Shown: in pieces, positions 5,071-49,742 of the stretch
Layout: the number at the start of each line of letters is the position of its first letter
Position numbering within the stretch: position 1 is the first letter of the stretch
DNA from: Diphasiastrum complanatum
Taxonomy: Eukaryota; Streptophyta; Lycopodiopsida; Lycopodiales; Lycopodiaceae
Length of the DNA stretch: 64,000 nucleotides
Reading direction: 5' to 3'
Assembly: GCA_029204225.1 (NCBI GenBank)
Contig: CM055104.1
Location: 52,568,294-52,632,293 of the forward strand
Notes under the pieces: generated by a model
What the model was told of the DNA's origin: nothing
What the model saw: the letters and a program-made list of their open reading frames with translations, nothing else
Database searches by the model: none
Translations under genes and position numbers: made by a program

Positions 5071-5772
5071 TGCGAACAGGTTTGTTTTGTATCGCGAATG
5101 TATTTATTTCTTTTAAATTTGCTTGTGCAGAAGCTTACAGGATCCCAGACACGCGACTACAGATCACAGAATAGATTTCATTCTAGCAATCAAAACAGCG
5201 GAAGACAAGGAGATGCACGAGATGGAGCAACTATATTATCGGTTTAATTTTTAGAGCGAGATGGTCAGTGTCTCGCTCATTGGCAGTCTGACGCTCTACT
5301 CTTTCGTTGTGTTCTGTTCGTTGGCAGACTTTCATGCACAACTTTTCATTTCTATTCATTTCTTTTCTGCTCTACTCACGCACATTCTCTGTGTATATTT
5401 TGATCGAAAAAAATAGTTTATATCTCCACTATGTGGAGTTTACAAGATAGCTAAACAGAGAATTACAAGAGTAGTTAATGCTAAACAACTAATCAGTTAC
5501 TCTCCGTTATTGCTAGCCATTTCAGCTGGGTGTGAAGTTTAAGACTCCATGCCCGTTGAGCTGCCAGCTGGCAGCGCGAAAGATTTTCTTTTGTTTCGTG
5601 TCGTTTCGTGTGTCCTGGAGGCATGTTTGACTTTCGTGAATTGTTTGACTTTCGAGATTCGCTTTGCTTCGTGTCTCAGGGTTTTTGAGATACGTTGACT
5701 TTCGCGAATTGTTTGCCATTCGACCTTCGCTTCGCGTCGTAGCAAAGTTGCAGGAGTTTACCATTTTTTACA
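5071..5772 (-). repeat. 3' LTR of Copia family C (702 bp)
   Basis: Read on the minus strand it starts TGTAAAAAATGG, directly after a purine-rich tract (GAGGGAG), and ends near a TTCGCA. It aligns by eye along its whole length with the plus-strand LTR at 38304-39048. It contains three copies of TTGACTTTCG (5627-5636, 5645-5654, 5695-5704), whose core matches the W-box bound by WRKY factors. Confidence 0.85.
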
Positions 5773-7165
5773 CTCCCTCTTGAACTTTGCAGCTTTGCAC
5801 GTTCATTCCAATTGCCTTTCTTTGCTTTGCGAAGAGTGGCTTGTCGGGCAGCTTTGTGAGTAGATCTGCAATGATGTCTTCAGATTTTATGTACTGGACC
5901 TGGAGCTCTCCTTTCGAGATCAAATCTCGAATGTGATGGTACTTTAGAGGTATTTGTTTTGTCTTTGAATGAAAGACAGGATCCTGGAACAGATAAATGG
6001 CACTCTGAGAGTCCATCATCATCGTGCATGGTCCTCCTTGTGGTATCCCAATTGCCTCCAGCATCATCTGCAACCACACTATCTCGTTCGCCACCTTTGA
6101 AACTGCGACGTACTCAGTTTTGCAAGAAGATTGAGCTCCCAAGGTTTGCTTTTTGCATATCCAGCTGATTGCTGCTCTGCGCTATTGTACATCCTCTAGT
6201 TATGGACTTGTTGTCATCTTTGTGGCTCGCCCAGCTTGCATCACTGTAGTGGTGCAGTTCGAATCCTTTTCTTTCGTTTTCTGCTCTGTAGGTTAATCCC
6301 ATATTTTGGGTACCCTTCAGATATTGATGGATTCGTTTTGTCATTTGCCAATGTGCCATGCCAAGATGGGAAGAGAATTATACCTGCCATCTTTTGTTCT
6401 TCCTCTTCTATTTTTGGGCAATCATGCTTCGTCAGCTTGGCACCAGCTATCATTGGTGTGGCCTTTTCTTTGCAGTCCATCATGTGATACTGCTTGAGCA
6501 CCTTTCTGGCATATTCAAACTGACTCAAGTGCATTTTGCCTTTTATTCGATCTCTTCTGATCTCCAGCCCGAGGCATTTTGTTGCTTCTCCTAGATCTTT
6601 GATTTCATAATTTTCAGAAATCTGACTTTTCGTGTCTTTGATTAACATCAAGGAATTTCCTATCATCAGGGAATCATCCACGAAAATAGTCAGTATCACA
6701 AAATCTTTTCCTACTCTTTTTATGTAGACATTACAGTCCGGTTGTGTAGGATTGCAATTGAGCTTGTGCCATCATGCATCTGCCTCCTTCGAGTAGCATC
6801 ATGTTTCTTCTTTTCGCGACACCATTATATTCTGGTGTGTACGTTGGAGTGAACTAATGCTCAATCCCTTGTTCTTGGAAAATTTTTGAAAACTCTTTGC
6901 TCTTGTACTCACCTCCATTGTCAGATCTGATGATGTGAATCTTCTTTGAGGTGTGTCGCTTTGCAAATGCCACGAACTTCTTCAAGGAATCAAACACTTT
7001 GGATTTTTTCTTTAGGCAATAGATCGTAGTCATCCGACTGTAGTCATCTATGAACGTCAAGAAATACCTCGATCCTAAGAGCGAATCCATTTTCATCGAT
7101 CCACAGACATCTGAGTGGACGAGCTCAAGAACTTCTTTGGCTCTTCTTCTCCTGCATGCTTACCA
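5773..7165 (-). pseudogene. Copia family C, 5'-truncated and internally deleted pol
   Basis: On the minus strand this holds part of the integrase core (7096-6854: FLTFIDDYSRM, then DNGGEYKSKEFS). It is followed almost at once by the second half of the RT (from about 6745, with TIFVDDSLM at 6699-6650) and the RNase H end (6142-5768, EYVAVSKVANEIVWLQ, and the ADLLTK motif). In the related copy at 34386-38303 about 1.07 kb of integrase C-terminus and RT N-terminus lies between these parts. Gag and protease are absent: homology begins at about 7165. The purine tract and LTR follow at 5772. It cannot encode working enzymes. Confidence 0.88.
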
Positions 7166-15900: not shown

Positions 15901-18900
15901 TAGGGCCATGTTTGGCATTAGAGGCAAAATAGGCTTTTACACATGTCAAGTCATGACTAGGTCAAAAGTAGAAAGTAATGTAGCTCGAGACAAGTTAGGC
16001 TTATGACATTTGTCATGTTGAGATTTGGTGTGTGACATGTCCCTATGTGTTGGCATGAGAGTTCGGGTCCAATCAAAAGAGAGAGATTCATCAATTTGGC
16101 CCAATCAAGTTTGAGGGCTCATAAGTCACTCAACCAATCATGTTTAGAGGAGGAAAAAAAGGTGTCCAATCATGTTTCACTCCCCTTCACATTAGATTAC
16201 TACTTATATGTGGTTTACATCCATTCTATGTAAGTTTTTGGAATTATGAGATTTCTACACTATTTTGGTCAATCTTGAGTTTCTCTCTCTAGCCTAGTTT
16301 TCTCACTTGGATTCTCTGTCTACCCAAGAGGAGGGCATTTCCACACTTAGTTTTCAGTTGTACAAGTATCCACACGTGTGAATGTACTTGTGTTGATGAT
16401 TTATGCATGGTAGAAAGTGCTCTTGCCTTGGATTTCAATCTATGTGTGATCTATGTGCAATCACAAAGTCTTAGGAGATCAATAACACATTTATAAGCTC
16501 AATTGTGTGCCTATGACCTACAAATACAATAAACGATGAATGTGGCATTTGAGTTGACAAATTCATTTTACCTTGAATAAACCGCCTTGAAACAAGGCAA
16601 AAAAGACGCCAGTTGTAACTGCATTTGTTGCAACATCTGGACCACCCATTCCACTTACAATGGAAAACATTGCACCTGATCCAAAGGCTGCTATCATACT
16701 GCAAACATCATCAAGGAAGCTTTACGCAGGTCTTAGGACGAACCATGTTATCCAGCCACAATTGATTTGCAATAAGCTACCCAATAGGAGCATTTGAAGA
16801 AAATTGGAATCCTGATTAAAAGCTTAAGCAATGCAGACACATAACATATAGGAATAAAAAAGAAAAATAAATTACAAAGATTTCAGTTAATTTAAACGAT
16901 TCATATCCATAAATTTATCATTTGAGTCCCTATGGATTTGAAGCCCTACAAGTCGTCTACCAATCTTATTAGAAATTTTCCTACTTGCAAGTATTCCTTT
17001 GTATCCAAATAGCAATTATGGATAAGCATGCCATAAACTTGAAACAATCAACATATCTATTTGTGAGACTAGAATACATACAAATTCACTAATTTAATCT
17101 GAAAAGTCAGTGATGTCATAAAGTAAATCTTAGGAAGTAGACGTGCAACAAAAAAAGTCAAAGGATCCGAATCAAAACAATAATTTGGAATTCAGAAAAC
17201 AAACAAACTTAGCCAACCAGCACTACTTATGTCTCATTAGTATGCATAGATGTGTTACGTTCCAGACCATTCTGGAATTTTAGGTCTTTCCGAAGCAGAA
17301 CATTTTTTTTTGGTGTGTAAATTCTTTCAGGTGTCTTAGGGAGAGAAAAAACCTAGAAAGTTCAAAAAAATAGTGATACATATTAGGTATTATGAATCAT
17401 AGATGCACAGAAACGCGTTTCTCCTCCCAGAATTGCACTTAAAAAATAACAGTATATTAAAAAAATTTTGCACCTCTTCACGGCCAGAATCGCGTCAGCC
17501 GTGGAGGAGGTAAATTTTTTGTTTTGAGCTACGAGTGTCCGATCGAGGCGTGTGCATAGTCGGCAGGCATCTACTCGGCGATACGGAGGTGGTGCGCACG
17601 GTGCCAGGGGGATCTGAGCTTCGTGGAGAGCGAAACGATCAGTTTTAGATATTTGGTAAGTATAGGCTTGATATTTTGCAAGTGTTGACATTGAGCTGTA
17701 GGCAACCAAATCGAGCGTAGTTTGGCTCTAGACCACCTTTCTTCATATCCACGGTGATTCTTACGGGGTCAGTTTCAACCATTACGGCACGCCTTGCGAT
17801 ATTTGAACACCGCAATCCAAATGCTTGTTTTTTTTTGCCATTTTCAGAAAATGACTTGTGGGCAACCGATTCACGTGATGTCTGAGCCTAGAATGCATTT
17901 CCACATGCCTGCAGAGACTCCTGTGAACTCCGTTTTGCCTGTCTACGTCCGTACCACAAATTTCAATTTTCATGCCCTAATTCCATGTTTTCTAGGGTTT
18001 CGGCATAGAGCATCATGCAAGCATCCGCCAGTAGCATGGTTTAGGCCTGCACTGGACTCCTTTACGCCTGCAAGGACTCCCACGCTAGCGTCAGTCGCCC
18101 GTTTTCGCTCACACTGGAATTATTCTATCCCTCGCCCTGTCTCGTGTGTTTTTTGGCACTTGCTATGATCTTACTAGAATCAATATGACGTGTGCTCAGA
18201 TGTGTTCAGCTCTGTTTTAGGCTGGAAATGTTTTTCAATGCAGTGTGTTTTCTTCTACTGAATGGTTGTCTGCTTGTTTTTGTTTGCAGGTTTGATCTCG
18301 TGTTGACACGAAGCCGATGCAGGGCCGAGGCCTTTGGGGCGAGGTTGAGCTTACTGAGGGGGACGTGGCTACACACCATGGCACGGGAGTCCGTAGATGG
18401 AGATGCTTGCATTGTGGTGGTCTCTTCACAGGATCACTTACCAGGGTTAGGGCTCACTTACTGAGGGTCAGAGGGCCGGGTGGGCGGGCATTGGGCATAT
18501 CTGATTGCCCCAGGATTTTTGATGAGGAGAGAGAGAGAGGTTGTCTATTATGTATGGGCACGATGCTGCATCACAGGTTTCCGGGCAGGGACAGGGACAA
18601 GGAGCAGGAGCAGCTGCAGGTTCACAGGCAGGGCTCACAGGTAGGCAGGCACGGCCTACTACGGGTGCAGAGCCTAGTACAGCACGTTCTGGGCAGGGTT
18701 TAGGTGCAGTGCATGGTCCAGGCGGGGCCACTCCAGTTCCACCCGCAGCAGCAGGGCTTAGTTCAGAGGGGAGAGCGTCACATGAGTAGGTTGGATCAGC
18801 GGTAGCGGGTCCTTCTCGTCCCTCCTCTTCTTCGGCGGCAGATGCAGTACATGGTTCGACAGGTCCTCCCAGAGAGAGTGATACACCCACAAATCAGCCA

Positions 18901-21900
18901 TCCGGTTCGCATGTTAGACCACGAGCGCCATGTGCACAGCAGTAGAGAGAGGTTAGGCCCAGACAGCAGACCCTTGATCGATGCGGGTGGCAGAGAGAGC
19001 AGCAGGCCCGGTGCACTCGACTTGCTGGCCAGTTCTTTTACGAGTGCGGCATTCCTTTTGCTGTTGCTAACACTTGGGTGTTCAGGGAGTAATTTGTCTG
19101 CTGCAGGAGGCGCGAGATCTCACGTATCTGGGAGGCCAGATGGGACTACTTCCACCGACCCATCCACGCCGTAGCCCACATATTGCACCCCTTGTGGCGT
19201 GAGACTCGGGATCGGGAGCTGCACCGGGGATGGGTGGAGTACACGGAGCGCGTATGGCCTGGACCAGGTACGTGTGATAAATTGCTTGGAGGGCTAAGTA
19301 CTGCAGTAGTGACTGTAGTGTGAACAGGTTGTCCATCGAGTAGTGTAGGCGGTTGGTGTTTGTGAACACCAACAGCCGTATGTTGAGGCGCACACGAGGA
19401 GGGGGACAAATGCTCGAGGTGAGTCACATCATCACCCCCTGTTTCTTGCTATGCTTTGACGAACTGAATTGCTTTCGAATTATGCAATGAATTGCTGACA
19501 ACAATGTATTGTTTTTGGTTGCAGGTGAACCCTGACACTTGCTTGGTGGATTCGGCAGCTGCTGCTCCTCGGGCACCACCCACGCAGGAGGAGATGGATG
19601 ATGAGATCTATAGAGAGTTCTATAGACAGGCGCAGGCTGACGCACGGGCTCTACGGCGTTCGAGGAGGGCAGACAGGCAGAGAGATAGGGCTGAGGAGGG
19701 GGATGATGAGGGCTTGGAGGGCGGAGAGGAGCTCGGGGCTGACTATCAGGAGGAGGAGTGGGTTGAGGGGGATACGGAGGACGATGAGGAGATGGGGGCG
19801 GAGGCACAGGGGGATGACCTGGCTGACCTGTTAGTGGACCCTGATGCGGAGACAGAGGAGGAGCCAGCCATTCCTGCACGTAGGCCTAGGGGGAGACCTA
19901 GAGGTTCTGGGAGGGGAGGGCTGAGTTCGCTTTTTGTAGACAGGAGTGGAGCATCACATGCAGCCGTCGGCCAGACATCATCACAGTGGGTAGGGCCATC
20001 TCAGGGCGTAGGATCACAGCCACCTGACACACAGACACGCAGGGGTAGACACAGGGGTGGGGGCAGGCAGAGAGGGGGCCAGAGGAGGGGAGAGAGGCAG
20101 AGGCAGAGGTAGAGGCAGGGGGAGGATCCAGAGCCAGAGCACGCAGCAGAGAGCCAGGGCCACACCACGACATATGGCTCCCTCTAGTTCCGATTCATCT
20201 ATAGACCCTTGGGATCTGCAGTCAGGCATAGATTCATCTAGATCTGCAGTCGGCACAAATTCAGATGAATCTGTGCCTGATCTATAGACCCTTGGGATCT
20301 GCAGTCAGGCATAGATTCATCTGGATCTGCAGTCGGCACAAATTCAGATGAATCTGTGCCTGACTGCAGATCCCAAGGGTCTGTAGATGAATCGGAACTG
20401 GAGGGAGCCATATGTCGTGGTGTGGCCCTGGCTCTCTACTGCGTGCTCTGGCTCTGGATCCTCCCCCTGCCTCTACCTCTGCGTCTGCCTCTCTCCCCTC
20501 CTCTGGCCCCCCTCTACCTGCCCCCACCCCTGTGTCTACCCCTGTGTGTCTGTGTGTCAGGTGGCTGTGATCCTACGCCCTGGGATGGCCCTACCCACTG
20601 TGATGATGTCTGGCCGACGACTGCCTGTGATGCTCCACTCCTGTCTACAAAAAGCGAACTTAGCCCCCCCCTCCCAGAACCTCTAGGTCTCCCCCTAGGC
20701 CTACGTGCAGGAATGGCTGGCTCCTCCTCTGTCTCTGCATCAGGGTCCACCAGCAGGTCATCCCCCTGTGCCTCCGCCCCCATCTCCTCATCGTCCTCCG
20801 TATCCCCCTCAACCCACTCCTCCTCCTCCTGATAGTCAGCCCCGAGCTCCTCTCCACCCTCCAAGCCCTCATCATCCCCCTCCTCAGCCCTATCCCTCTA
20901 CCTGTCTGCCCTCCTCGAACGCCGTAGAGCCCATGCGTCAGCCTGCGCCTGTGTATAGAACTCTCTATAGATCTCATCATTCATCTCCTCCTGCGTGGGT
21001 GGTGCCCGAGGAGTAGCAGCTGCCCAATCCGCCAAGCAAGTGTCAGGGTTCACCTGCAACCAAAAACAATACATTGTTGTCAACAATTCATTGCATAATT
21101 CGAAAGCAATTCAATTCGTCAAAGCATAGCAAGAAACAGGGGGTGATGATGTGACTCACCTCGAGCATCTCTCCCCCTCCTCGTGTGCGCCTCAACATAC
21201 GGCTGTTGGTGTTCACAAACACCAACCGCCTACACTGCTCGATGGACAACCTGTTCCTCTTCTGCATGTGATACAAGGCCCAGGTGCTCCAATTCTGCTC
21301 GCAAGCTCCTGCTGAAGAGTCCTGTGCAAGGACTCGTCGCAGGTCACCTGTGCCGCGCCCATGGTAGCCCCACCATGTAACAGGCCTCAGCATATCCTCC
21401 CTCCGCCGACTTCGCTCTCCATCGAAAGGAAACTGGTAGCGCTCAAAGATCAGCAGCTGGTATGCAATGTTAGTGAGCATCAGATCTGTTGGCAAAAGAA
21501 AAAACATGGCTCGTGTAAGTCCTCTTGAATTCACACACTAGCAATGAGCACACTACAGCCACTACTGCAGTACTTAGCCTACCAAGCAATTTATCACACG
21601 TACCTGGTCCAGGCCATACGCGCTCCGTGTACTCCACCCATCCCCGGTGCAGCTCCCGATCCCGAGTCTCACGCCACAAGGGGTGCAATATGTGGGCTAC
21701 GACGTGGATGGGTCGGTGGAAGTGGTCCCATCTGGCCTCCCAGATACGTGAGATCTCGCGCCTCCTGCAGCAAACAAATTACAACAATCATGTAACCATA
21801 GCTGCCATAGCATAAAAGAAACAAATCAGACTTGAGTGAGAAACAACAAACTAGACAATGAAGAGTCATATCTGTGCTCATCCAAGGCTGACGTCAGAAT

Positions 21901-24900
21901 CCCCTTGTCGAGTCAGGTACTGTGTCTCAAAACAGTTTTGAAGAGCTCTTCAATCTTCTTAGGCTAGACAAGCCAGACTTTTTGAAAGTGATTCCTAGTT
22001 ATGCGGCTAGTCTTAGTAGTGAAATTGACTTGATCGGTAAAGTTTAGATACAAGCTCCTTTGCAGTGTAAACATTTGAGGACGATACAGATTGGATTTCT
22101 GAAAGTCAAGAACACTTTAATATCTCAAGTGGAGATGAATCATCCGACGATAAAGCTCGCACAAAAGTTTGTTCTCGTCTGGAAACTAGTTCACACGTGA
22201 AAGCAAGAAAGCATATCACGGATATATGCCTGACATAGATGCTTGCTCTTCTGGCTAGAGAGAGAGAGATAGCGAGAGCACAAGAGAGAGTTTTCCGGTC
22301 AAAATTACATATTGTTTGCTCTTTCAGGCCCGATTATGTGGTATCTCAGTCGTGGGAGGCATGGGCAGTGGTTAGGTTTGTTGCAAATTTTTTTAGGTAC
22401 CTTTTTCGTTTTTTTTAACATGAGGGGGTAGGTATGTGCCTGACACTCTCTAATAATTAATTCCGGGGGGGGTAGGGGGAGGAAAAATGTTTTTATTTCA
22501 TTCTAGGGATGGGGCCTGTATTTTTTATTTATTTATTTTTAAAAAAAAATTGAAAAATGGTGGACGCGTCGGGACGCGGACGCGGACACGTGTCCACCAT
22601 CCGCTTCCTTAGGTATATATACATATTTCCAACGAATTCAAAAAATATATAAATAAATAAAGTAAAATAAACATCAAAAGTTTAAATATGTACAAATAGT
22701 ATTTTGTACTTTGAGATATAAATACATATGCTCATCTCCTTTTTATCTGTACACAAGAATCAACATCCTAAGTTTCTATCATTGCCCAAAGAGGAAAAAG
22801 TTAAACTCATTGATGATTGAAACAAACACAAAAAAAAGTGAAGACAAGTTACAACTGACCAGAGTCCTTGCAATTAAATAGTAGCAATATTTCAAGAGGT
22901 AGTAATCATGTTGTTAAGAGGTAGTAAAACCTTTATATTCACTACCCAAAATGACAAAAATTGATTGGTTACCCACTTTATTGAGACGAGCATTACCTTG
23001 TGTGTGTGTTCAATTTTAAAATAGAAATGACCAACACGAACCTTGTTTGTGTATCCTCTACTCCACCTCGTAACCTTTTCATGGCACAAGTCAATCCTGC
23101 ATTGACACCTGTCATAACAGCAAAGTTTCGTGCTTGCAGAAGTGGGCCTCCAGCAAAAGCCTGCAATGAATGCTCAATAGTTCAAAACAATGTATATAGC
23201 ATAGCCTGTATGAAATACAATCACAGTATTAACACTACATACAAGTCATTTGATAAATTAGGACAAAAGTTCGCTTGCTCAACTATCCCTTGAGGCAAAA
23301 TTGAATGCCTCACATGTTGCAATTAGTCTCAAGTGACAATTGTTACACAAAAAGATGCAGGGAAAATCTACTTACTGTTTCAACACCGATGATCAACAAT
23401 TGAAAGTGTTCTCGATAGGGATTCCCAAAGATATCTAAATTATGTTAAAGAAGCAAATGTCATGATTATGCGTTCAAATGAAAATCCACTACATACAATG
23501 GTTCTTTTTCAAAACTTTCCCACTTTATCCAATAATTGGTAGTTTTGCTTCTTCATACTAGATGTAACAATTCAAAAAAAAAAACTTCATGCACGACAAT
23601 TTTATCAAGGACAAACATGTGGATTGCTAGACACAAAAATAAAAGCATGGGTGTATTCACAGACCAATACAAAAGATGTCTACAAGGTAATGCACCGTGA
23701 AATAGTATTCATTGCAATTCACATCTAACTCTATTGAAATAATTTAGGTAGCAAGTCCTATCATACTTGAGAGGCTCAAACTATCGAGCTTACACATTCT
23801 CCTTCTTAGAAGTTCGTGAGTCTTGCTTTCATGAACAAGACCAATGCAAGCTACTAATTGAATACTTTCTCCAAAGCTAACAAGTCCGTCACTCAAGGTT
23901 TACTATCAAGTGACCAAATAAAACTCTTGCCACATCTTACAACAAAACAATCGAACCATCGAGTTTCACATTACTCGAGTACAACAACACTTGAGTTTTC
24001 AAGGTTTGCAATTAAGTATATAATTTACATATTGTGGCTAAAAAACTCCTCTTTTCACATGAAAGGAGCCAACAACAATATTAGCCGCATTTTATGCTAC
24101 ATAAAGGATGGCCAAAATAAGCTCCTATAGGTCTTGAAGGGAAATTGAACAAGAATCTGTCAAAAGCATTTGAAGCAACTTGTAATATGTACTTGTCGCT
24201 TATATGCAATATTGAGTCCCCCAATTTCGACAGCTTACAAACCAAATTAATGAGATAGAGACTTCAAAATATTTACCCAACTAGTTTTGAAACTACAACA
24301 CCTTAGTTCAATGGCTTGTAAGGCAAACGAGAAGTTGTTGACAAGAAGTAAGATATGAAAGAGCTCGTGTTTTCTCACACATCAATAATGTTGATGAGAA
24401 AGTTCTATTAGCAAGTGGCCAAGTCCAATGATGGAACTCTTATTGGCTCAAGCAAGTAGCCCAAGAATGAAAAAAACATGGAGGTTTGGACAAGTACATT
24501 TAAGAACGTAACTAGTTGTAAAGTGAGAAAGCTTAAATGGTTTGGTCATAGATTCTTGACTACGGAACTGTCTATCCACAAGCAATCAACAAAAACAATT
24601 CGATGTCCCCAATTTGTAGAATGATGATCAAATCCATTCAGCATCATCTATTTTGATGCCATTGGTTTGATACATACAAGGCCTTTAGGGGAATCTTTTG
24701 AGAAGACTTAAGCAAGAGCGCATGTTGGCATATAGATTCTACATTTCTTGTTAGGTAAAGAGTTACTATATTTAAAGGCTTTTGATTCTATGTCATACTT
24801 GTAAGCAAAGATCCTGAAATTGTTAGAAGGTCACTATAAAATAATGTCGTTTATGAGATGCCATAAATGTGGAACTTTCAATAACTTGGTAGAGAGCACT

Positions 24901-26639
24901 TTCCTGAGTAATTGCCAAGGCAAAAATTTGCTCTACTTGTGCTAATTTCTCTCTAGGTGCTTTCTCTCTAGATATGATGTCTCTCTAAAAAATCTTCATT
25001 TTTTTGTCTCTACTTGTTTTCTCCCTTAGGCACTTATATGTTTACTTTTCACATCGTTTGCAATAGCTTTTTTTGTTTGTGATCAACATTGAGTTCTATT
25101 AGTTATGTTGGTTTTCTAATAACTGGGTGTTCCTGCCCTAGCAAAGGTTTTACCTTTGTGGTGCAAAGATTCCGATTGCAACCATACTTACATGCCGATT
25201 CGAATCGGCCGATTCGTCCCGATTGCAAAGGAGCAATCTAGGAAAAGCCTAAACCCACCAGGTTAATGCCTTCTCAAACCAGAGTCATCTATGACTACCA
25301 ATTTCAAGTTTGGTATCTAGAGAATTGTTGAAATGCGAGGGTTTTAATGCAATATCTCATCTACAATCCTTAACTCAAAGATAGCCCTGGTACCTAAACT
25401 ATCTGAGACGAACCAATCATACAATCCATGGACATAAATGCCAAAGAACATATATGCTAATGACTTGTATACATAGAAAAGAAGCGGCTAAGAAACAAAA
25501 TTAGCATTGAAGAAGAAGCACCCATGCTTGGTACACGATGTACATACAAGGAAAAGTTTTGGAATGCCAATTTTCTTGCCATCCTTTCTAGAACTTATGT
25601 AATTGTAAAAATTAAACAACTAAAACTGAAGGAAATTGGATTCATGGTTGAATTTTTTCTTTTTCAGCACCTTTATGAGGTTTTGCTCACTAGTTTAGTA
25701 GTCATCCTATGAGAAAAATAAATTCAGCAGAGCTTTTGAATAGCAAATTGCACGCGAGCTTCTGCAAGGCAGCGACTAGGCTGCCTGTTCTACTGAATAT
25801 GTATGGATTTCGCCTGCTGCCTCTCTTTTTTTCATGAATTTCAATGCTTCCCATTTGAATATCCAAGGGCAGATTATGGTTTTGAAAGCAACTTCACCAT
25901 TTTAGCTGACATATAAAAAATATTCACATCCATAAAGAAATTCCTATAGCAGATTATACTTCATAAAAAGGCCGTAAAAATAATATTTTAGCCAAAAGGG
26001 ATCTGGTCTACCCTACACACTTGGGAAAGATTTTCTAGTGACCAGTGACCTTTTCATTAGACTCAATGTCCGCACATTAACAGCTCAGCCTAACAGCCAC
26101 GACATCAATCTACAGCCACTGTACCTAGTGGAAAGGTCACTCGAAAATCCACTCCCAAATAAATAAACACCTAAACTTCTAACTATTACTGAAGAAACAG
26201 AAGAATAAAAATGGCGGAATAAGGTGGATATAGCCAATTAGTATGTTGCTTTCTTTTCCTAAGCATATATAAACCCTACAATTAAGCTGTAAAACCGTGG
26301 TTTGTAATGGAAAAATGAATATTGTAACCAGACCTGGGCCTTCTGGAGAGAGGCAGCAGCCTGGGGATTCAGGCCCTGAGCCTGTTGCGGCAAAGAAGCA
26401 GCCACATCCGCTGTGAAGGTGCCCATGAGCGCTCCAATGACGCCCCCTTGCAACGCACTGGTGGCTGTGACCAGCGCCACCTCCACAGGCATGGATTGCT
26501 GTCGCATCCATTGCTTCAGGTCTGCATCAAACCGCCTCAAACTCTCTTGCACCTGTTGTATGGGTCCTCCTGCTGCCTTGAACATTCCCGCGGGCACTAG
26601 CTGCTGCTTCTGCTGTTCCTGCTCCTGCGTCGTCGCCAT
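11817..26639 (-). CDS. HP30: HP30/TRIC-type Tim17-SAM organelle import protein, six coding exons
   Basis: I joined six minus-strand exons in phase: 26639-26334, 23160-23042, 16698-16572, 12514-12366, 12045-11983 and 11844-11817. All introns are GT...AG, and the 792-nt CDS gives 263 residues, close to the roughly 260 of Arabidopsis HP30 proteins. Exon 1 (residues 1-102) carries a Gln-rich start, an amphipathic segment and the first membrane helix (VTATSALQGGVIGALMGTF). Exon 2 has the Tim17/22/23 signature (GGPLLQARNFAVMTGVNAG). Exon 3 has two more helices (MIAAFGSGAMFSIVSG and TTGVFFALFQGGLF). Exons 4-6 encode a SAM domain (GLQRYEKNFKKGLLTDATLP, then IPPGPRLLILDHIKR). Known family members are inner-membrane proteins implicated in chloroplast preprotein import (HP30) and mitochondrial tRNA import (TRIC1/2); the SAM domain is linked to RNA binding. 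Which organelle applies here cannot be told. The start ATG sits in a good context (CTATGGCG). Introns of 3.2, 6.3 and 4.1 kb carry transposons; the last two are 320 and 138 bp. Confidence 0.93.
12895..12936. repeat. (CT)n microsatellite
   Basis: About twenty CT units at the upstream edge of the LINE-like ORF1 region. It may be part of that element's pyrimidine-rich 5' leader. Confidence 0.95.
13344..14318 (+). CDS. LINE-type ORF1 protein (RNA-binding), no ORF2 follows
   Basis: An uninterrupted frame of 324 codons from MADWQSVNWKGKKK; an upstream in-frame ATG at 13302 would add 14 residues, but the second ATG gives the more plausible N-terminus. Order of parts: a Pro/Ser/Thr-rich low-complexity segment (residues about 15-90), a predicted coiled coil (about 95-135 and 160-180), the SWADVLKG motif (near 185), then an RRM-like and C-terminal region (LNVKVRGASFAGKDLMAEA, then TIFMDEDLTPIQWTERKKN and FRDGRPVLVKI). 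This layout matches ORF1 nucleic-acid-binding proteins of L1-clade LINEs. No endonuclease or RT frame follows, and a 3' tail starts at once. It lies in intron 3 of the host gene, antisense to it. Being open over its full length is unusual here, where nearly every other transposon frame is broken. Confidence 0.7.
   Translation: MADWQSVNWKGKKKTPPPSPFVFSAIPTTAPNPFSLPPPSPAFSPSPIPSTPATSTSSPTATTPSTLSSSSPSFTPSSSSSLSPSLSAEFLSGFPHIIESLQETNVSLLALIKQQAFQISTLENTVLVLHGKVGILEVDVTYLKNGLEFDEEEEDGSSNADSKDMAKELQERVHSLEQQFQQSKSSWADVLKGSKQTISESIQEHQKRDLKALNVKVRGASFAGKDLMAEANAFIHSTFGLKEDVISATWVDKFQSTTVFLRFKDALLRQKVLHKRGCLKGSTIFMDEDLTPIQWTERKKNIADAKANSFRALFRDGRPVLVKI
14319..14540 (+). other. Putative 3' tail of the LINE-derived element
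   Basis: After the ORF1 stop come two copies of a short motif (CTCTCCTGCGTGAGAGATG at about 14338 and CTCTCCTGCATGAGAGATG at about 14379). Further on are the TTGTACGCC and AATAAAGCT signatures often seen near plant LINE 3' ends. No poly(A) tail or target duplication was recognised, so the end is approximate. Confidence 0.4.
15060..15540 (+). pseudogene. Degraded retroelement gag-like remnant
   Basis: Several frames together read like the C-terminal part of a gag protein: a basic, Lys-rich stretch (EHGKKAKEPEAPSIGNFQPW, KRQFKKWKGQSSQ) followed by a Cys-containing piece (YFGCLGQQVRETRCKPP) resembling a decayed zinc knuckle. Stops interrupt every frame. It lies in intron 3 of the host gene. The assignment is tentative. 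Confidence 0.35.
15730..16474 (+). repeat. Solo-LTR-like relic related to Copia family A
   Basis: It starts TGTGAAAATATGGC, resembling the family A LTR start at 60247, and shares the characteristic pair of CACACGTGTGG / CCCACGTGTGGAAA boxes near its 5' end. The pentamer GAGAT occurs just before (15725-15729) and after (16475-16479), which would fit a target duplication of a solo LTR. The 3' end does not finish in CA, so that end is uncertain. Confidence 0.5.
18317..20112 (+). pseudogene. hAT transposase, left copy (BED finger, DUF659 start, C-terminal exons)
   Basis: In intron 2 of the host gene and antisense to it. An acceptor-like site (TTGTTTGCAG, ending 18290) precedes a BED zinc finger at about 18395-18510 (WRCLHCGGLFTGSLTRVRAH and a later Cys). 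After a Gly/Gln/Ala-rich linker with stops and a frameshift in a GA run near 18530, the frame resumes with the hAT N-terminal block (GQFFYECGIPFAVANTWVF, about 19035-19085). This jumps into an intron 3' end and the exon 19107-19267 (ARWDYFHRPIHAVAHILHPL). About 290 bp carrying the first part of the dimerisation exon is missing. The last exon, 19525-20112, is fully open and encodes an acidic tail then an Arg/Gly/Gln-rich end. The protein would be a DNA transposase, but the central catalytic region is absent. Confidence 0.82.
20195..20395. repeat. Tandem duplication and hairpin at the palindrome centre
   Basis: A unit of about 80 bp containing TAGACCCTTGGGATCTGCAG and ending at GATGAATCTGTGCCTGA occurs twice in tandem (from about 20201 and from about 20280). 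Its second copy then turns back on itself: 20308-20325 pairs with 20343-20360. Smaller palindromes (AGATTCATCT with AGATGAATCT) lie inside each unit. This nested structure marks the inversion point. Confidence 0.85.
20514..21764 (-). pseudogene. hAT transposase, right (inverted) copy of the 3' half
   Basis: Read on the minus strand, three exons can be recognised. 21764-21604 encodes ARWDHFHRPIHVVAHILHPL. 21485-21160 encodes the hAT C-terminal dimerisation domain (PVTWWGYHGRGTGDLRRVLA, then SSAGACEQNWSTWALYHMQK and NRLSIEQCRRLVFVNTN). The last exon from 21053 encodes the acidic tail. Junctions are GT...AG (acceptors end TTGCTGCAG, TTGCCAACAG and GGTTGCAG). The SACE-NWS-KRNRL pattern is the hallmark of the family. 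The last exon has an in-frame stop after RRSRRADR that the left copy lacks. BED finger and catalytic core are absent. The copy ends in an intron at about 21779. Confidence 0.85.
22559..22598. repeat. GC-rich palindrome GGTGGAC...GTCCACC
   Basis: A 40-bp GC-rich island in AT-rich intron DNA. The 7-bp ends are reverse complements and the interior repeats GGACGCG. It resembles subterminal motifs of plant DNA transposons and could mark an end of the hAT block, but no matching partner was found on the left side. Confidence 0.4.
23200..26333. other. Intron 1 of the host gene, no inserted gene seen
   Basis: AT-rich intron sequence with no protein similarity I can recognise. The splice donor CAG/GTCTGG is at 26334/26333 and the acceptor CATTGCAG ends at 23161. 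A palindromic patch GATTCGAATCGGCCGATTCG lies near 25196. Confidence 0.6.
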
Positions 26640-34385: not shown

Positions 34386-37300
34386 TCAAAATTCGAAATC
34401 AAAACACTGCTGAAGGGCGAAGGCATCTGGTCGGTGACCGAACTCTCAGAGGTGCAGCCTCCAGAGGGAGACCCAAGGAGAGCTGAATGGATAAAAAAGG
34501 ATGAGCGTGCAATGGCGATCATCATTTCGTCCATCAACGAAGATCTACTCATGCATATTGAAGACGGCGAAAGTAGCCATACAGCATGGGAAAGATTAAA
34601 ACAGAAATACGAAGTGAGGACTACAGCTTCAGTGATGCAAGCTGCAATCCATACGATGGGATGGCAACCAGCTGGACCAGCATGTTGAGAAGATCAGAAT
34701 GATCTCTGCTCAACTTGCTGCATCAGGGCAAGAGCACCAGCAGGTCCCAGCACCACAACAGCTAATGTACTTCATGAAGTCTCTACCTACGTCCTATCAA
34801 CCGTTGAGAATGCTTATCCTGAGTCTACCAGATATGACATTCGACAAAGCAATCAGTCTTGTCATTAATGAGAGACTGATGAGGGATGAAGGAGAAGGAA
34901 GCAGTGATCAAGATAAAGCTCTCTTCACCAAAGAAAAGAAGAAGAACAAGAACAAACCCAAATTCGACAAGACAAAGTTCTCAAATCAACAATTTTTTTT
35001 CTTGTGATCACTATCACAAACCAGGCCATACAGCCAACAAATGCTGGTTCAATCCAGCAATACCTAGCATGCATTACAAGAAGAAGGGCACTCTGCATAC
35101 GATTGCAGATTCAACCCAAAAAAAAAGAACAAAACTGAGAAAGCAAATGTTGCAGAGTCATCAAAAGATGCAGATAGAGGTGATGAAGCCTTCAGAATAT
35201 TTGATGAAGCTTCAACAAGCTACACTGAACAAGACTATGATGTAGTCATTGATTCAAGAGCAACATCACACATCACGTGCAATAAGAAAATCTTGATCGA
35301 CTTCAGAGAACTCAAAAATAACAGAGTAGTGATTCTAGGTGATGGGAGCAGACACGATGTCAAAGGCATCGGGACTCTATAGCTGTGAACATTGTCAGGT
35401 CAAGCAGAGATGCCAGGAGCACTCTACGTGCCATCATTGAGAAAAGATCTGCTATCAGTCTCCAAAATGGCAGATCTTGGAGTTCAAGTTTTATTCGATG
35501 GCAATACATGCCACATGATCGAAAAAACAACAAGCAAATTGTTGACGGTTGGATGCAGAAAAGGAAATCTCTACCAAGCCAAGATAATCAGCAATTCTGA
35601 TAGCATATTAAATGCATCAGAAAATGAAGATCAGCTCTAGCATAGGAGAATGTATAATCTGAATAGGAGGAGCTTGTATGACATGTGCAACAAAGACATA
35701 GTCACAAGTTTGAAGATATCAAGACCCGATATTGAATTATGCGAAGCCTGTTAGAAAGGCAAACAACATCGGAATCCATTCACACATGAGGGAAGAAGAG
35801 CCAAAGAAGTTCTTGAGCTTGTCCACTCAGATGTCTGTGGACCGATGAAAATGGATTCGCTCTCAAGATTGAGGTATTTCTTGACGTTCATAGATGATTA
35901 CAGCAGGATGACTATTCTACTACCTAAATTTTTTTTTTGAAGTGTTTGACTCTTTCAAGAAGTTCGTGGCATTTGCAAAGCGACACACCTCAAAGAAGAT
36001 TCAGATCATCAGATATGACAATGGAGGTGACTATATGAGCAAAGATTTTTCGAAATTCTGCCAAGAATAGGGGATAGAGCATCAGTTCACTCTTGCGTAC
36101 ACACCAGAATATAATGGTGTCGCGGAAAGAAGAAACAAGACACTAGTCGAAGGAGCCAGATGCTTGATGGCATAGGCTCGATTGCCAAGTCAAATTTGGA
36201 TTGAGGCAATAGTTGCAGCAGTACACCTGCAGAACAGATCAACAATGACATCGTTGGAAAATAAGGCACCGTATGAAATGTGGACAGGTAGAAAGCCTGA
36301 TCTATCATACGTACGTGTGTTTGGATGTGCAGCATACAAGCACATTCCAAAAGATAAAAGAAGCAAGCTCGATGATAAATCAAAGAAAATAATCATGGTC
36401 GGGTACTCGAATGGATCACAAGTGTACAGACTCTACAATCCAACCACGAATAAGGTTGTTTCGAGTAGAGATGTGAAGTTCGATGAGTCCACATTCCCTG
36501 GACTAAAGGATGAGAATGGCCATGAGATCTTCACACTACTACCAATTCAAGAGGGAGATCGAGGACATACGTCAAATCAGACTCCAAACCAGCAGGAAGC
36601 AGAATCCCACGAACAAGACGTTCGAGCAGTGACGAAACGAACCCAAAAGGTCAACAAGACAAAGAAGACCTCCAGATCGATACGCTGACAATCTTCAGTG
36701 GAGCGAAGACATGCAATCTGATTACTACAGCTTCATTGAAGAGCCGACAACATATCAAGAAGCTGTCCAGAGTTCAGAGGGAGAATTCTGGAAGTAGACA
36801 ATGTCAGAGGAGATCAAGTCGATGAGGTGAAATGAGGCATGGACACTAGAGCCACTGTTAGAAAACAGAAAGATTGTCGACTGCAAGTGGGTGTACAAAA
36901 AGAAAATGAAATCAGGTGACACTGTTGGCCATTATAAAACAAGGCTTGTCGCGAAGGGCTACACACAAAGGTATGGTGTTGATTATTTCGACACATATTC
37001 GTCGATGGTCAAGATGACAAGCATACAACTGCTCCTTGCATATGCTACACAACACAATCTGAAAATTCACCAAATTGATGTAAAGACAGCCTTTCTCCAC
37101 GAAGATCTAGAGGATGAAATCTTCATGAAGCAGCCTAAAGGATTTGAAGACCCCGACAATAGACAATATGTTTGTCAGTTGCAGAGATGCATTTATGGTC
37201 TAAAACAAGAATCACAAGCTTGGTACAAGAAGCTCGACAGTCTTCTGAAGTCTCTAGACTTCAATCCTACACAACCAGACTGTAATGTCTACATAAAAAG

Positions 37301-38303
37301 AGTAGGAAAAGATTTTGTGATACAGACTATTTTCGTGGATGATTATCGTATGATAGAGAACTCCTTGATGCTAATCAAGGACATGAAGAGTCAGATTTTT
37401 GAAAATTATGAAATCACAGATCTAGGGGAAGCAACAAAATGCCTCGGACTGGAGATCAGAAGAGATCGAATAAAGGGCGAAATGCACTTGAGTCAGTCTG
37501 AATATGCCAGAAAAGTGCCGAAGTAGTATCACATGATGGATTGCAAAGAAAAGGTCACACCAATTATAGCTAAAGCCAAGCTGACGAAGCAGGATTGTCC
37601 GAAAACAGAGGAAGAAAAACAGAAGATGGAAGGTATATCCTACCAAAACCTAATCAGTAGTCTGACTTACAATTTGTACCAGACCCGATATAGCTTTCTC
37701 TGTTTATGCTTTAAGCCAATTCTCTTCCAATCCTGGCATGGCACATTGGCAAATGAAAAAATGAATCCTACGATATCTGAAGGGTACCCAAAATATGGGA
37801 TTAATGTACAAAGCAGAAAACGAAAGAAAAGGATTCGAGCTGCACCACTATAGTGATGCAAGCTGGGCGAGTTGCAAAGATGACATCAAGTCCATAATTG
37901 GAGGATGTTCAATAGCGTGTGGAGCAGCAATCAGCTGGATATGCAAAAAGCAAACTTGGTAGCTCAATCCTCATGCAAAATTGAATATGTCGCAGCTTTA
38001 AAAGTGGCGAACAAAGTAGTTTGGTTGCAGATGATGCTGGAGGCAATTGGGATATCACAAGGAGGACCATGCACAATGATTATCTGTCCCAGGATCCTGT
38101 CTTCCATTCAAAGACAAAACACATACCTCTGAAGTATCATCACATTTGAGATTTGATCTCGAAAGGAGAGCTCCAAGTCCAGTACATAAAATCTGAAGAC
38201 ATGATTGCAGATCTGCTCACAAAGCCGCTCGACAAGCTACTCTTTGCAAAGCAAAGAAAGACAATTGGATTAAATGTGCAAAGCTGCAAGGTTCAAGAGG
38301 GAG
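34386..38303 (+). pseudogene. Copia family C polyprotein, nearly full length but broken
   Basis: Gag starts without its first codons (KTLLKGEGIWSVTELSEV, 34353-35007 over two frames). A decayed CCHC (CDHYHKPGHTANKC) is followed by a protease with Asp-Ser-Arg in place of Asp-Ser-Gly (VIDSRATSHITC, about 35247). Integrase lies at 35690-36688 with stops and frameshifts (YNGVAERRNKTLVEGARC). RT lies at 36891-37526 (DVKTAFLHEDLEDEIFMKQP, and FVDD at 37339), and RNase H at 37850-38290 (EYVAALKVANKVVWLQ, ADLLTKPLDK). The usual order gag-PR-IN-RT-RH is kept. The 5' LTR and primer-binding site are absent; the 5' end meets the family A LTR. A purine tract GAGGGAG leads into the 3' LTR at 38304. Confidence 0.9.
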
Positions 38304-39048
38304 TGTTAGAAATTGTAAACTCCTGCAACTTTGTCACGACGCGAAGCGAAGCAACACGAAGCAAAGGTTGAATGGCGAACAATTCATGAAAGTCAACGTA
38401 CCTCAAAAATCCTAAGACACGAAACGAAGCGAAACGAAGGTCATATGATTCACGAAAGTCAGACATGCCTCCATGACCAAAAGACACGACACGACACAAA
38501 ATGAAAAGAAAACAAAAGAAAATCTTTCGTGCTGCCAACTGGCAGCTCAACAGGCATGGAGCTTTGAACTTCACGCTCAGCTGAAACAATCAACAATTAT
38601 AGAGAGTAAATAACTAGTTGACTAGCATTAACTACTCTTGTAATTCTCTGTTTAGCTATCTTGTAAACTCCACACAATGGAGATATAAACAATTTTCTGG
38701 ATCAACAGAATACATTGAGAAGTCCGCGAGAGTAGAGCAGAAAAAGAAAAGAATTAAAAATATAGAGAAAAGAAATAGTTGTGCATGAAAGTCTGCCAAC
38801 GACCAGAACATAGCGAAATAGCAGAGTGTCAGGTCGCCAACGAGCGAGACACTGATCATCTCACTCTAAAAATAAAACTGATAATACAGTTACTCTCTCT
38901 TGTGCATCTCCTTGTTTTTCGTTGTCTTGATTGCTAGAATGATATCTATTCTGTGATCTGTAGTCGCGTGTCTAGGATCTTGCAAGCTTCTGCATAAGAA
39001 AATTCAAAAGAAACAAATCCGTTCGCGACACAAAACCCATTCGCGACA
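38304..39048 (+). repeat. 3' LTR of Copia family C (745 bp)
   Basis: Starts TGTTAGAAATTG and ends TTCGCGACA. Its first 250 bp are full of CGAAG and CGAAAGTCA motifs, whose complement TGACTTTCG overlaps the W-box core. It aligns with the minus-strand LTR at 5071-5772. Confidence 0.85.
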
Positions 39049-42435: not shown

Positions 42436-43450
42436 TTTTACAAGTAGAGGTGATGAAGTCCTCCAAATCCAAGGTAGAGCCTCCAAATGTCCTCCAAGCA
42501 ACCTGCAAGCTTCAAGATGCTCCCCAACTCCAAGCTAGGATGCCTCCACCTGCAAGTAAGGATCTGCAAGCCTCCAAGGATCTCTCCTCCACCTGTGTCC
42601 CTACTCTTTAAACACAAAGATAGATAACAAGCTGGCCTCAAGTATTCACCACCCAACCAAAGCTAGATCCAAGCTCCAAGCAAGACCTATCCAGCACCCC
42701 CCTTGCTAACCATAAACAAATCACAAGCATACCACAACACTCCATAGCATTCTCAAGATCCAAACCCTACTTATGTCCCATACCATAAGCAAGATCCAAA
42801 CCTCAAGCATACTACCACAAGAAAGCACTCTACACATTAGTAACAACACTAGAGCATAAGCAAAGCAAACAAGAGAGATCCCCCCCTCCCAATGGGCGCC
42901 CTATTACCCTCATATAGATGGCCCATGGACCCCTCCAATGCACTATGGAGTTCCATGCACATCCAATGAGAGAGAGAGAAGACTAGGGGAGTTAAAGAAT
43001 CTCCAAGAGCCTCCATAGGCTTATGGAAGGTCAAGAGACTCCTTCCGTAACCTATGACTCTTTGAATGCCTAGTTGGCAACTCAATGGACACTTTAAAAG
43101 GGTGCCCTCCTACTAGGTCCCATTGCCCAAGTTGTGCATGTATGAAAAATAGTCATCCAATGACTTTCTACAACTTCACTAGGTTCCATACCTCCATCCA
43201 AGGCATAGACACCTACTTGCCCTTAACCAAGGACACTAGTACCTTAATCTAAGGTACCTACTCTTAATACTAAGGGTACCCCTTATCCAAAGGTCACGTG
43301 ACTCCATACCTCCAACTAAGGTATAGTCACATGCTTGTCCTTATCCAAGGGCACATACTCTTAATCCTAAGGGTACCTTGCCATTTAGCCCCCAACACTA
43401 AATGGTCTATTACGGGTCTGAAGTACTGCTAGTTACATAGGTATGTAACA
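42436..43450 (-). repeat. 3' LTR of the Ty3 element (1015 bp)
   Basis: Minus-strand start TGTTACATACCTATG at 43450, following the purine tract AGGGGGAAGGAA, and end CTTGTAAAA at 42436. The start has the canonical TG, but the end is not the usual CA. It lacks about 60 bp present in the other LTR around 48835-48900. Confidence 0.92.
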
Positions 43451-43465
43451 TTCCTTCCCCCTAAA
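43451..43465 (-). other. Polypurine tract of the Ty3 element
   Basis: The minus strand reads TTAGGGGGAAGGAA immediately before the 3' LTR, as needed to prime plus-strand DNA synthesis. Confidence 0.85.
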
Positions 43466-44792: not shown

Positions 44793-46514
44793 TCAAATCA
44801 AGAAATCCATTTCAGTCTTTCCCTTATTCAAGGAATCTTGCAAACCTGAATCGACTCCCAAAAGCTCTTGTTGCCAATACTTTCCAAAAAAAGGATCGGA
44901 CTCATATAGTCCTTGAAGAGATTGAAACAACTCCGGTTTTATAACAGTAAAGCACAACTGATTAATAACCGGTAACCGACTCAAAGCATCCGCTAGAGTA
45001 TTTTGACTTCCTTTACAATAACGTATAGAAAAGTCAAAGATTTGCATCAGCTCAGCCCATCTAGCTTGCCTCCCCTTTAGATCTGTAGCATCACAGAAAT
45101 ATTGAAGAGTCTGATGGTCTGTCAAAACTTCAAATATGACTCCATACAAATAATGTTTCCAAATTTTCAAGGAATGAACAATTGCAAACAGTCCCTTCTC
45201 ATAGGTACAATACTTAGACTGAGCAGGATTGAGTTTCTTGCTTTCATAAGCTACATGATGTCCATCCTGCATCAAAATAGCTCCAATAGCATAATCACTG
45301 GCATCGGTCCTAACCACAAAAGTCTTATTAGGATTGCCAATGATTAATATTGGTGCTGAAGTGACACTTTTCTTAAGCAACTCAAAACAATTATTCATAT
45401 CCTCCGTCCACACCACTAGTGGACTCTTAGCCCTCCGGCTTAGCTTCTTATAGCCTTTCAAGGCCTGGGTAAGAGGAAATGCCAATCGAGCAAATTGGGG
45501 AATATGCCGACGGAAAAATCCCACAAATCCCAAGAAAGACTTGATTTCCCGAACTGTGGTGGGAATAGGCCAATCAATAACCCTCTGGATATGATCAGCC
45601 TCAATCTCCACCCCCCATTCGAAAATCTTATGCCCCAAGTAGGACAATTTCTTAGCAAAAAAATCACACTTAGACTCCTTGGCAAAGAGCTTTTCCCTTC
45701 TTAGAATGTCCAAGACAATCCTAAGATGCTCTTTATGTTCCGCCAAAGTCTTACTAAACACTAGGATATTATCTAAGAATACCACTACGAATCTTCCCAA
45801 ATATGGTCTGAACAAATCGTTCATCATTTGTTGGAAAGTTGTCGGTGCATTGGTCAAACTAAAAGGCAACACCAAAAATTTGTAGTGACCAAAGCGAGTT
45901 TGAAATGCACTCATCCTATAAGGACGCTGTGTGATTGGAATTGCTCCAGGTATTAGGTCAATTTTATGACCAACTGTCCTTTCTGGTGGTAAACCTACAG
46001 GAAGGTCTAAAAAAACATCATTGAATTCCTGCCTAAGTTCATTATAGGCTTCAAATTCTGTAGTGTTCTCACTGGGTATATTCATGACATTTATGTTAAG
46101 TTCTTCATCATCGCAGCAAATGATATCATTATGAAAATATAAATAAACTTTAAAATCAGAATTCTTCATAACATAATTAAGTTCTTGTTTAGAATAAGGG
46201 TTAACATTTTTACTGTCAACAGTTAAACTAGCCTTGATCTTAATTAAAGAATTCTCATGCAGAAAAGATAAAGATTTCTCAACAAAATCAATTCTCAATG
46301 ATTTGTTCTTATCAAAATGCCATTGTTGCCCAAGAACAATATCTACATTAGCTAATTGAACAGCATGGAATTTTAGTTTTTCAGAATAATTCTGAATGTG
46401 CAATTCTACATCAGGAACGATAAAATCCATCAAATTGGAATTACTTCCCAATGCCATTGTCACACGATATTTTTTCTCACTTTTTCTGGTAGGAAGGTTT
46501 AGTGTCTGTCCCAA
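44793..46514 (-). pseudogene. Ty3 protease remnant, reverse transcriptase and RNase H with inactivating lesions
   Basis: A 573-codon frame. Residues 1-110 are the second half of a retropepsin-like domain (IVPDVELHIQ, IVLGQQWH). RT follows, but PYRMS is joined directly to AFQTRFGHYKFLVLPFSLTN. This omits the roughly 85 residues that normally hold the first catalytic Asp and the YPLP segment. The second catalytic motif reads VVFLDNILVFSK instead of Y-L-D-D-I. RNase H is well kept (RTDASDYAIGAILMQD, LTDHQTLQYF, NTLADALSRL). The deletion is in frame, so the ORF looks intact although the polymerase must be inactive. A small frameshift near 46505 separates it from the start of the protease. Confidence 0.92.
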
Positions 46515-48119: not shown

Positions 48120-49198
48120 TTTTACAAGTAGAGGTGAGGAAGTCCTCCAAATCCAAGGTAGAGCCTCCAAATGTCCTCCAAGCAACCTGCAAGCTTCAAG
48201 ATGCTCCCCAACTCCAAGCTAGGATGCCTCCACCTGCAAGTAAGGATCTGCAAGCCTCCAAGGATCTCTCCTCCACCTGTGTCCCTACTCTTTAGACACA
48301 AAGATAGATAACAAGCTGGCCTCAAGTATTCACCACCCAACCATAACTAGATCCAAGCTCCAAGCAAGACCTATCTAGCACCCCCTTGCTAACCATAAAC
48401 AAATCACAAGCATACCACAACACTCCATAGCATTCTCAAGATTCAGACCCTACTTATGTCCCATACCATAAGCAAGATCCAAACCTCAAGCATACTACCA
48501 CAAGAAAGCACTTTACACAGTTGTAACAACACTAGAGCATAAGTAAAGCAAACAAGAGAGATCTCCCCCTCCCAATGGGCGCCCTACTACCCTCATATAG
48601 ATGGCCCATGGACCCCTTCAATGCACTATGGATTTTCATGCACATCCAATGAGAGAGAGAGAGCCTAGGGGAGTTAAAGAATCTCCAAGAGCCTCCATAG
48701 GCTTATGGAAGGTCAAAAGACTCCTTCCATAACTTATGACTCTTTGAATGTCTTTCTTGTGGGAGTTGGCAACTCAATGGACACTTTAGAAGGGTGCCCT
48801 CCTACTAGGTCCCATTGCCCAAGTTGTGCATGTATACTTTGGTCCTAGACCAATAAAGTGATATGGTTCAAGGTTGAGGCCCAAGGTTTTAGAAAAATAG
48901 TCATCCAATGACTTTCTACAACCTCACTAGGTTCGATACCTCCATCTAAGGCATAGACACCTACCTGCCCTTAACCAAAGACACTAGTACCTTAGTCTAA
49001 GGTACCTACCCTTAATATTAAGGGTACTCCTTATCCAAAGGTCACGTGACTCCATACCTCCAACTAAGGTATAGTCACATGCCTGCCCTTATCCAAGGAA
49101 ACATACCCTTAATCCTAAGGGTACCTTGCCATTTAGCCCCCAACACTAAATGGACTAGTAGCGGTCTGAAGTACTGCTAGTTACATAGGTATATAACA
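48120..49198 (-). repeat. 5' LTR of the Ty3 element (1079 bp)
   Basis: Minus-strand start TGTTATATACCTATG at 49198 and end CTTGTAAAA at 48120. It is followed by the target duplication TTTCA at 49199-49203. It carries an extra segment (GGTCCTAGACCAATAAAGTG region) absent from the 3' LTR. Confidence 0.92.
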
Positions 49199-49742
49199 TT
49201 TCAACTTGAAAGAAAACTGCTTTTCTACATAAGCTTTGAAAGTAAGAAAAACATCATAGACCATGGCTTTTGAAGACAACATATAGATCCAAGAATATCT
49301 TGTATAATCATCTACAAAGGAAACAAAGCAATTTGCCCTCCTTTGCTCTTAGTTGATGAGAAATGAACATCAGAGTGCACTAGTTCAAATGGTTGCTTTG
49401 TTTTGATGCTTGATCTAGGAAAAGGCCTTCTGTGTGATTTTGCCAGCACACAAGCTTCACAATGTAGAAGCTCCTTTGATAGTATCTTTGGTAGTCCAAC
49501 AACTTTTCCTTTCTTGACCATAGATTGCATGGCTTTGAAATTGGGATGACCCATTCTCTTGTGCCACAGATCCTCCTGAAGAACCTTGGTCTCATAAGCA
49601 ATATCTGAAATGTTAGCACTCTCCCTGGAATCTAGTTTGTACAACTTACCAGTTCTAGATCCTCTAGTAATAACTTCATTTTCTCTTGAGATTATGCACT
49701 TGTCAACTTGAAACTTGACATCCAATCCACTATCAAACAACT
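49199..49742 (-). pseudogene. Copia family D pre-integrase and integrase N-terminal half, inverted
   Basis: On the minus strand: GLDVKFQVDKCIISRENEVI, LWHKRMGHPNFKAM and CEACVLAKSHRR (zinc-binding HHCC) then FELVHSDVH, followed after a frameshift by RYSWIYMLSSKAMVYDVFLT and FKAYVEKQFSFKL up to the TTTCA site. It joins in frame with 42430-42131 once the Ty3 element is removed. The inversion breakpoint is at about 49742, where RNase H coding begins on the plus strand. Confidence 0.88.

Follow-up and report, generated by a model that had tools for sequence, protein, structure and literature searches.

Chance inverted copies are one proposed trigger by which plants recognize a multiplying transposon, and Mu killer is probably the best-known example. 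A locus in Diphasiastrum complanatum, where the 3' part of a hAT transposase gene is present twice within an intron, in opposite orientations, raises the question of how such a palindrome is born and whether it could silence its parent family. We address this question in a window of 64,000 nucleotides, the whole stretch of DNA analyzed (C13:52568294-52632293), with searches that cover the 1.745-Gb assembly of 5176 contigs.

The palindrome resides in a gene on the minus strand. Three exons of this gene were traced, the first from its ATG at 26334-26639, the second at 23042-23160, and the third at 16572-16698, and they join in frame across GT-AG introns, including the join between exons 2 and 3. 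The joined protein matches Pfam PF02466 (Tim17/Tim22/Tim23/Pmp24) with an E value of 1.2e-11 and a score of 45.3 bits, compared with a cut-off of 32.7. The preliminary description of this DNA had placed the palindrome in intron 2 of an apparently intact organelle-import gene. The in-frame joins and the Tim17 match uphold this for the three traced exons, to which the statement of intactness is limited. Intron 2, as defined by the exon join, measures 6343 nt (16699-23041, minus strand), and the hAT-derived stretch (17398-21911) lies wholly within it. Short repeats are also observed near the insertion, at 16300-16492 and 17053-17246, with copies elsewhere that are 80-89% identical.

Self-BLAST on the minus strand, the self-alignment proposed in the preliminary description, confirms that the palindrome exists. 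When compared with its reverse complement, the stretch 19322-21256 is 94.2% identical over 1952 columns, and 19089-19322 aligns with 21549-21782 at 97.4% identity. The span first given for the structure, 19090-21779, agrees with these arms to within 3 nt. The left arm (19089-20280, plus strand) carries the 3' exons and introns of a hAT gene in sense orientation, and the right arm (20339-21782, minus strand) carries the 3' exons and introns antisense to the left arm. In the left arm, a deletion of 292 bp at 19322/19323 (plus strand) has removed most of the C-terminal exon. The corresponding 292 nt (21257-21548, minus strand) are found in the right arm only and contain most of that exon; the last hAT exon of the right arm has three in-frame stops. 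The two arms differ at 41 of 1148 columns of a multiple alignment, and at 35 of 1138 (3.1%, or 3.08%) after removal of the axis columns.

Outside the palindrome, the two copies end in different ways. The left copy extends to a 5' TIR, CATAGATGCAC (17398-17408, plus strand), recognized by comparison with relatives and one mismatch away from the family form CATAGTTGCAC. The 8-mer next to it, TTATGAAT (17390-17397, plus strand), is the presumed left target-site duplication. The 5' part of this copy (17398-19089, plus strand), comprising the upstream region and the first coding exon, is 90-94% identical to 10 copies elsewhere. It stops at an internal deletion point (19089/19090, plus strand), where about 1.17 kb of core is absent relative to L014, L016, L017, L023, and L028. 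The claim that the locus consists of two copies of the 3' half of a hAT gene is therefore correct for the duplicated 3' part but falls short for the left copy, which reaches the 5' TIR and has an internal deletion. Maize Ds elements are hAT derivatives with internal deletions, as from interrupted gap repair, that keep both termini. The present locus shares the internal deletion with Ds but has a single terminus and, to our knowledge, palindromes like this one are not usual among Ds elements.

On the right side, hAT sequence continues past the palindrome (21783-21911, minus strand) up to a truncation within the element, and the last 0.5-0.9 kb of the hAT, the 3' TIR, and the right target-site duplication are missing. 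No 3' TIR was found across 16300-23200, and TTATGAAT with at most one mismatch is absent between 20281 and exon 2. The window copies are also devoid of the DUF659 transposase core. With only one element end left, mobility of the structure as a unit is not expected.

The truncated copy meets an unrelated repeat at 21905-21912. Bases 21905-21911 can be read either as filler or as hAT sequence; five of the seven fit L028, and the other two are C-to-T changes. The assignment of these bases as definite filler was dropped on account of this match, and filler may be absent altogether. From 21912 to 22626 (plus strand), comparison with copies elsewhere identifies a piece of another repeat family, the second at this locus and of high copy number, with 54 match rows (best 40 of 1553 candidates scored). 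This fragment is cut off at 21912, and its presence rules out a right flank made up of host intron alone. Five copies of this second repeat continue to share sequence, in pieces, for 1.0-1.2 kb beyond the 21912 join. The part absent at the join has no match of at least 40 nt elsewhere in the window; a weak 114-nt match at 45089-45202 corresponds to the other side of the second-repeat copy L033. Self-BLAST also reveals two further repeat pairs in the window. One is a direct pair (42436-43452 and 48120-49200) with 94-95% identity, which may represent the LTRs at either end of a retrotransposon about 6.8 kb long. The other is an inverted pair of another repeat (5084-7158 and 35785-39036), 84-90% identical in pieces and about 30 kb apart.

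The genome search for further hAT copies that the preliminary description envisaged gave 1435 candidate places in one search and 1859 in another, with the best 40 scored each time, and the family is large. We fetched 20 other copies, 16 of them distinct and 4 near-identical partners, and took the 5' end of the element from these. Relatives whose ends are reached carry the TIRs CATAGTTGCAC (5') and GTGCAACTATG (3') or close variants, as read from the 5' ends of 6 copies and the 3' ends of 14. Target-site duplications of 8 bp are clear at two copies, TGATGGTC at L023 and TGTACAAC at L028. The region L028:3221-3616 encodes DUF659 (Pfam, E 3.2e-38), which we take to be a mark of hAT transposases. 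By its 8-bp target-site duplications, short TIRs, and DUF659 core, the parent element is classified in the hAT superfamily. Neither the C-terminal exon nor the first exon gave a Pfam match to a C-terminal dimerization domain or a BED zinc finger; the likeness of the hAT exons to these domains is a tentative one, judged by eye. Among the fetched copies, the pairs L009/L010, L011/L012, and L014/L016 each join a chromosomal copy with an almost identical unplaced contig (0-2 differences over the arm region), and these contigs look like second haplotypes retained in the assembly. L019/L020 form a similar near-identical pair, within C21.

A comparable palindrome is present in none of the 20 other copies (16 distinct), within 9.5-10 kb of each. 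L018 shows a different inverted pair, of 137 columns and about 2.7 kb apart. A 301-nt query across the axis is matched throughout by the window alone, and other places match one half only (best 40 of 1005 candidates). The palindrome as a family-wide foldback element is ruled out by these two results. In a 126-nt query across the right junction, only the window spans the join, and the remaining 39 rows align with the half that comes from the second repeat (best 40 of 381 candidates). The anatomy and the breakpoints of the palindrome are defined, and among the scored places it is specific to this locus; the search scores the best candidates only, and a palindrome with a different axis could escape it.

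Among the scored places, only one matches the left flank over its full length and only one the right flank, so that no second allele came to light that might support or contradict the locus. With flanks, axis, and right junction each found at a single full-length place among those scored, and with no unplaced contig backing the structure, the palindrome could have been created in the assembly by a chimeric or fold-back read. A fold-back artefact would, however, yield near-identical arms, whereas those observed here differ by 3.1%, by the 292-bp indel, and by smaller gaps. In addition, the host exons flanking the palindrome on both sides join in frame. We consider an assembly artefact highly improbable.

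The origin of the palindrome is best approached from its center. The 18-nt spacer reported there in the preliminary description was not recovered. Instead, two registers compete, the first with a 9-nt loop at 20330-20338 and the second with a 2-nt axis, ATTCA-GA-TGAAT, within GGCACAAATTCAGATGAATCTGTGCC (20335-20360), identified by comparison with other copies. The ATTCA-GA-TGAAT sequence recurs at 20252, inside an 83-bp tandem duplication (20197-20363, plus strand) whose unit holds the axis and whose copies are 99% identical. This duplication disrupts the central symmetry, as may be expected of an unstable palindrome that became tolerated. Since the center was rearranged afterwards, the first junction is legible only indirectly. 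At the axis site, four of the seven distinct copies (L022, L025, L026, and L028) read ATTCAGATGAT, and the remaining three (L009, L014, and L023) are one base off. The window reads ATTCA-GA-TGAAT, and the sequence then turns backwards along the element. TGA is common to the forward and backward paths, and its partner is the TCA two bases earlier, the two forming a 3-bp micro-inverted repeat. In most of 10 compared copies, both arms start at one element position.

Our best reading of these features, to which we assign a probability of roughly 0.65, is a one-off fold-back during break repair. A hAT element would have landed in the second intron of the Tim17-family gene, with its 5' TIR at 17398, and a double-strand break would have followed in or near the 3' end of the element. 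After resection, the end would have folded onto itself at the micro-inverted repeat TCA-GA-TGA, or changed template at that site, and synthesis would have copied about 1.5 kb of the element in reverse. A broken neighboring repeat may then have captured this end at 21912, with loss of the intervening DNA, namely the last 0.5-0.9 kb of the element with its 3' TIR, the right target-site duplication, and part of the second repeat. The left-arm deletions, the drift between the arms, and the 83-bp duplication would have come afterwards. We infer the break, the fold-back priming, and the order of events. A common start, a micro-repeat axis, a far end on unrelated broken DNA, and a loss in between are what a double-strand break would be expected to leave if repaired by fold-back synthesis and then by end joining. 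The element's own excision may have caused the break, although the axis sits 0.5-0.9 kb inside the element. Against fold-back, the micro-repeat is no longer than 3 bp, around a loop of 2 nt, three of the seven copies differ by one base there, and the later rearrangement obscures the first junction.

A similar process is described in yeast, where PMC11724301 reports inverted templated tracts at double-strand breaks that start by microhomology fold-back and whose other end is captured by end joining. The microhomology start and the end-joined far side are common to these inversions and the present locus. In contrast, the tracts reported there are mostly 5-34 bp long, compared with about 1.5 kb here, and the yeast system is an assay, whereas the locus is a plant relic.

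The kinship of the arms was examined in an alignment of 22 rows (the 2 arms and the 20 copies), with the axis columns (from 1895) excluded from the distances, the private-change counts, and the tree. In a maximum-likelihood tree of 16 sequences, which leaves out the divergent L021 and L024 and the four near-identical partners, the arms are sisters with an ultrafast bootstrap of 83, a stem of 0.0027, and tips of 0.0135 and 0.0204. Distances were calculated for 19 rows (without L021, L024, and L026), and shared sites for 15, the four partners being left out as well. The arms have 10 derived sites in common (0.22), while either arm shares at most 7 (0.13) with any of the 13 other copies. Pairs among the other copies reach 0.24, and L014 and L028 share 11 sites. 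The distance between the arms, 3.1%, lies between the minimum of 2.6% (the four near-identical pairs apart) and the median of 4.5% over all pairs, and the arms are 4.0-14.2% distant from all 20 other copies. Independent copies can be equally close or closer, as three pairs of them stand at 2.6, 2.8, and 3.05%, against 3.08% for the arms.

These values bear on a second possible origin, in which two hAT elements inserted independently in opposite orientation and the center was trimmed later by deletion. The distance between the arms falls within the range of independent copies, from 2.6% upward, and the right copy retains sequence that is absent from the left copy, both of which fit two insertions. 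However, two insertions would both have to be trimmed to one element position with a 2-nt spacer, no 3' TIR was found at 16300-23200 and no right target-site duplication either, and the arms cluster both in the tree and by shared derived sites. We regard this origin as unlikely. More probably, the arms are twins whose separation came shortly after the copy arose. Fold-back during break repair remains the favored reading, and a further point against it is that the stem joining the arms is short; with a moderate support of 83, their sister relation is supported but not proven.

Turning to silencing, the preliminary description had expected a long foldback, and folding predictions agree with it, as either strand is predicted to form a duplex of about 1.1 kb. 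The predicted cross-axis pairs number 1124 on the plus strand and 1128 on the minus strand, and perfect helices no shorter than 21 bp number 18 and 17, respectively. The predicted minimum free energies are -2633 (plus) and -2658 (minus) kcal/mol, compared with -980 to -997 kcal/mol for three mononucleotide shuffles of the plus strand. What was put forward initially about the structure, its hAT identity, its place in the intron, and its predicted folding is supported.

The proposed role as a trans-silencer fares less well. Under this proposal, transcripts of the palindrome would form a long hairpin and be diced to siRNAs that silence the family, in the manner suggested for Mu killer. The transcripts would come from the retained hAT 5' region (plus strand) or from the unspliced host intron (minus strand), and the left copy does retain the 5' TIR and the upstream region. 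The arms share 527 identical 21-mers, 505 of which are present in at least one of the 16 distinct other copies, so that siRNAs could match the hAT family if the locus were transcribed and the transcripts diced. This evidence is permissive only, and two indirect tests are not in favor. Among private changes, those of the methylation type, C-to-T or G-to-A, account for 20 of 32 in the arms and 158 of 331 in the 13 other copies, a higher share that is not significant (Fisher p 0.14). Leaving aside one near-identical unplaced contig, the relatives closest to L028 show 98% identity with it over 930 bp, and the arms are 3.1% apart, suggesting, for a comparison based on one query copy and rounded identities, that hAT insertions were ongoing around or after palindrome formation. 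As some copies seem about as young as the palindrome or younger, the family would not have been silenced at once. Had the arms undergone gene conversion with each other, the palindrome would seem younger than it is, which would strengthen the age argument. On balance, we judge the trans-silencer proposal improbable.

In the small-RNA profiles covered by passages of PMC5569507, a 24-nt class is prominent in the clubmoss Lycopodium cernuum and obvious also in Isoetes sinensis, which suggests that a clubmoss may well possess the 24-nt pathway; in contrast, two Selaginella species have no prominent 24-nt peak there. No hAT hairpin silencer was found among the titles in the literature searched. Today the locus is most likely a passive intronic relic, able to give double-stranded RNA when intron 2 or the hAT 5' region is transcribed. 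Some siRNA output from it is possible, if somewhat doubtful, and a decisive role in silencing the hAT family is hardly to be expected. Should siRNAs occur, they could be assigned to the locus because arm-specific variants exist.

The analogy with Mu killer holds for the inverted duplication of a transposase gene but is looser than first claimed. According to passages of PMC3440606, silencing individuals carry short antisense transcripts that are incapable of forming large hairpins, and read-through sense transcripts occur in plants that fail to silence. As described in the same passages, Mu killer has in common with our locus an internally deleted transposon, a partial inverted duplication of the transposase gene with about 1.3 kb duplicated, and host transcription alongside. 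The two differ in superfamily (hAT here, Mutator for Mu killer, a MuDR derivative) and in the part duplicated (3' here, 5' in Mu killer). Moreover, our locus has one outer TIR, at 17398, with the right copy cut at about 21911, whereas those passages give Mu killer two TIRA ends. Mu killer silences, while the present locus is intronic and known from its sequence alone. Conversely, its center is sequenced here, whereas PMC3440606, in the passages concerned, could not sequence across the center of Mu killer.

In a further scenario, which we consider distinctly unlikely, a single fold-back step gave birth to a natural hairpin trans-silencer, active now or in the past against a large hAT family of a non-seed vascular plant and driven by the host intron or the hAT 5' region. 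If true, this would represent a Mu killer-like locus born independently, outside Mutator and outside flowering plants. The locus tells more about the birth of inverted transposon copies than about silencing. It provides a readable structural counterpart to Mu killer, with the axis, both ends, and the repair scars visible, and it suggests a mechanism of birth that can be searched for genome-wide, in the form of palindromes confined to one locus, with a micro-repeat at the axis and end joining at the far side.
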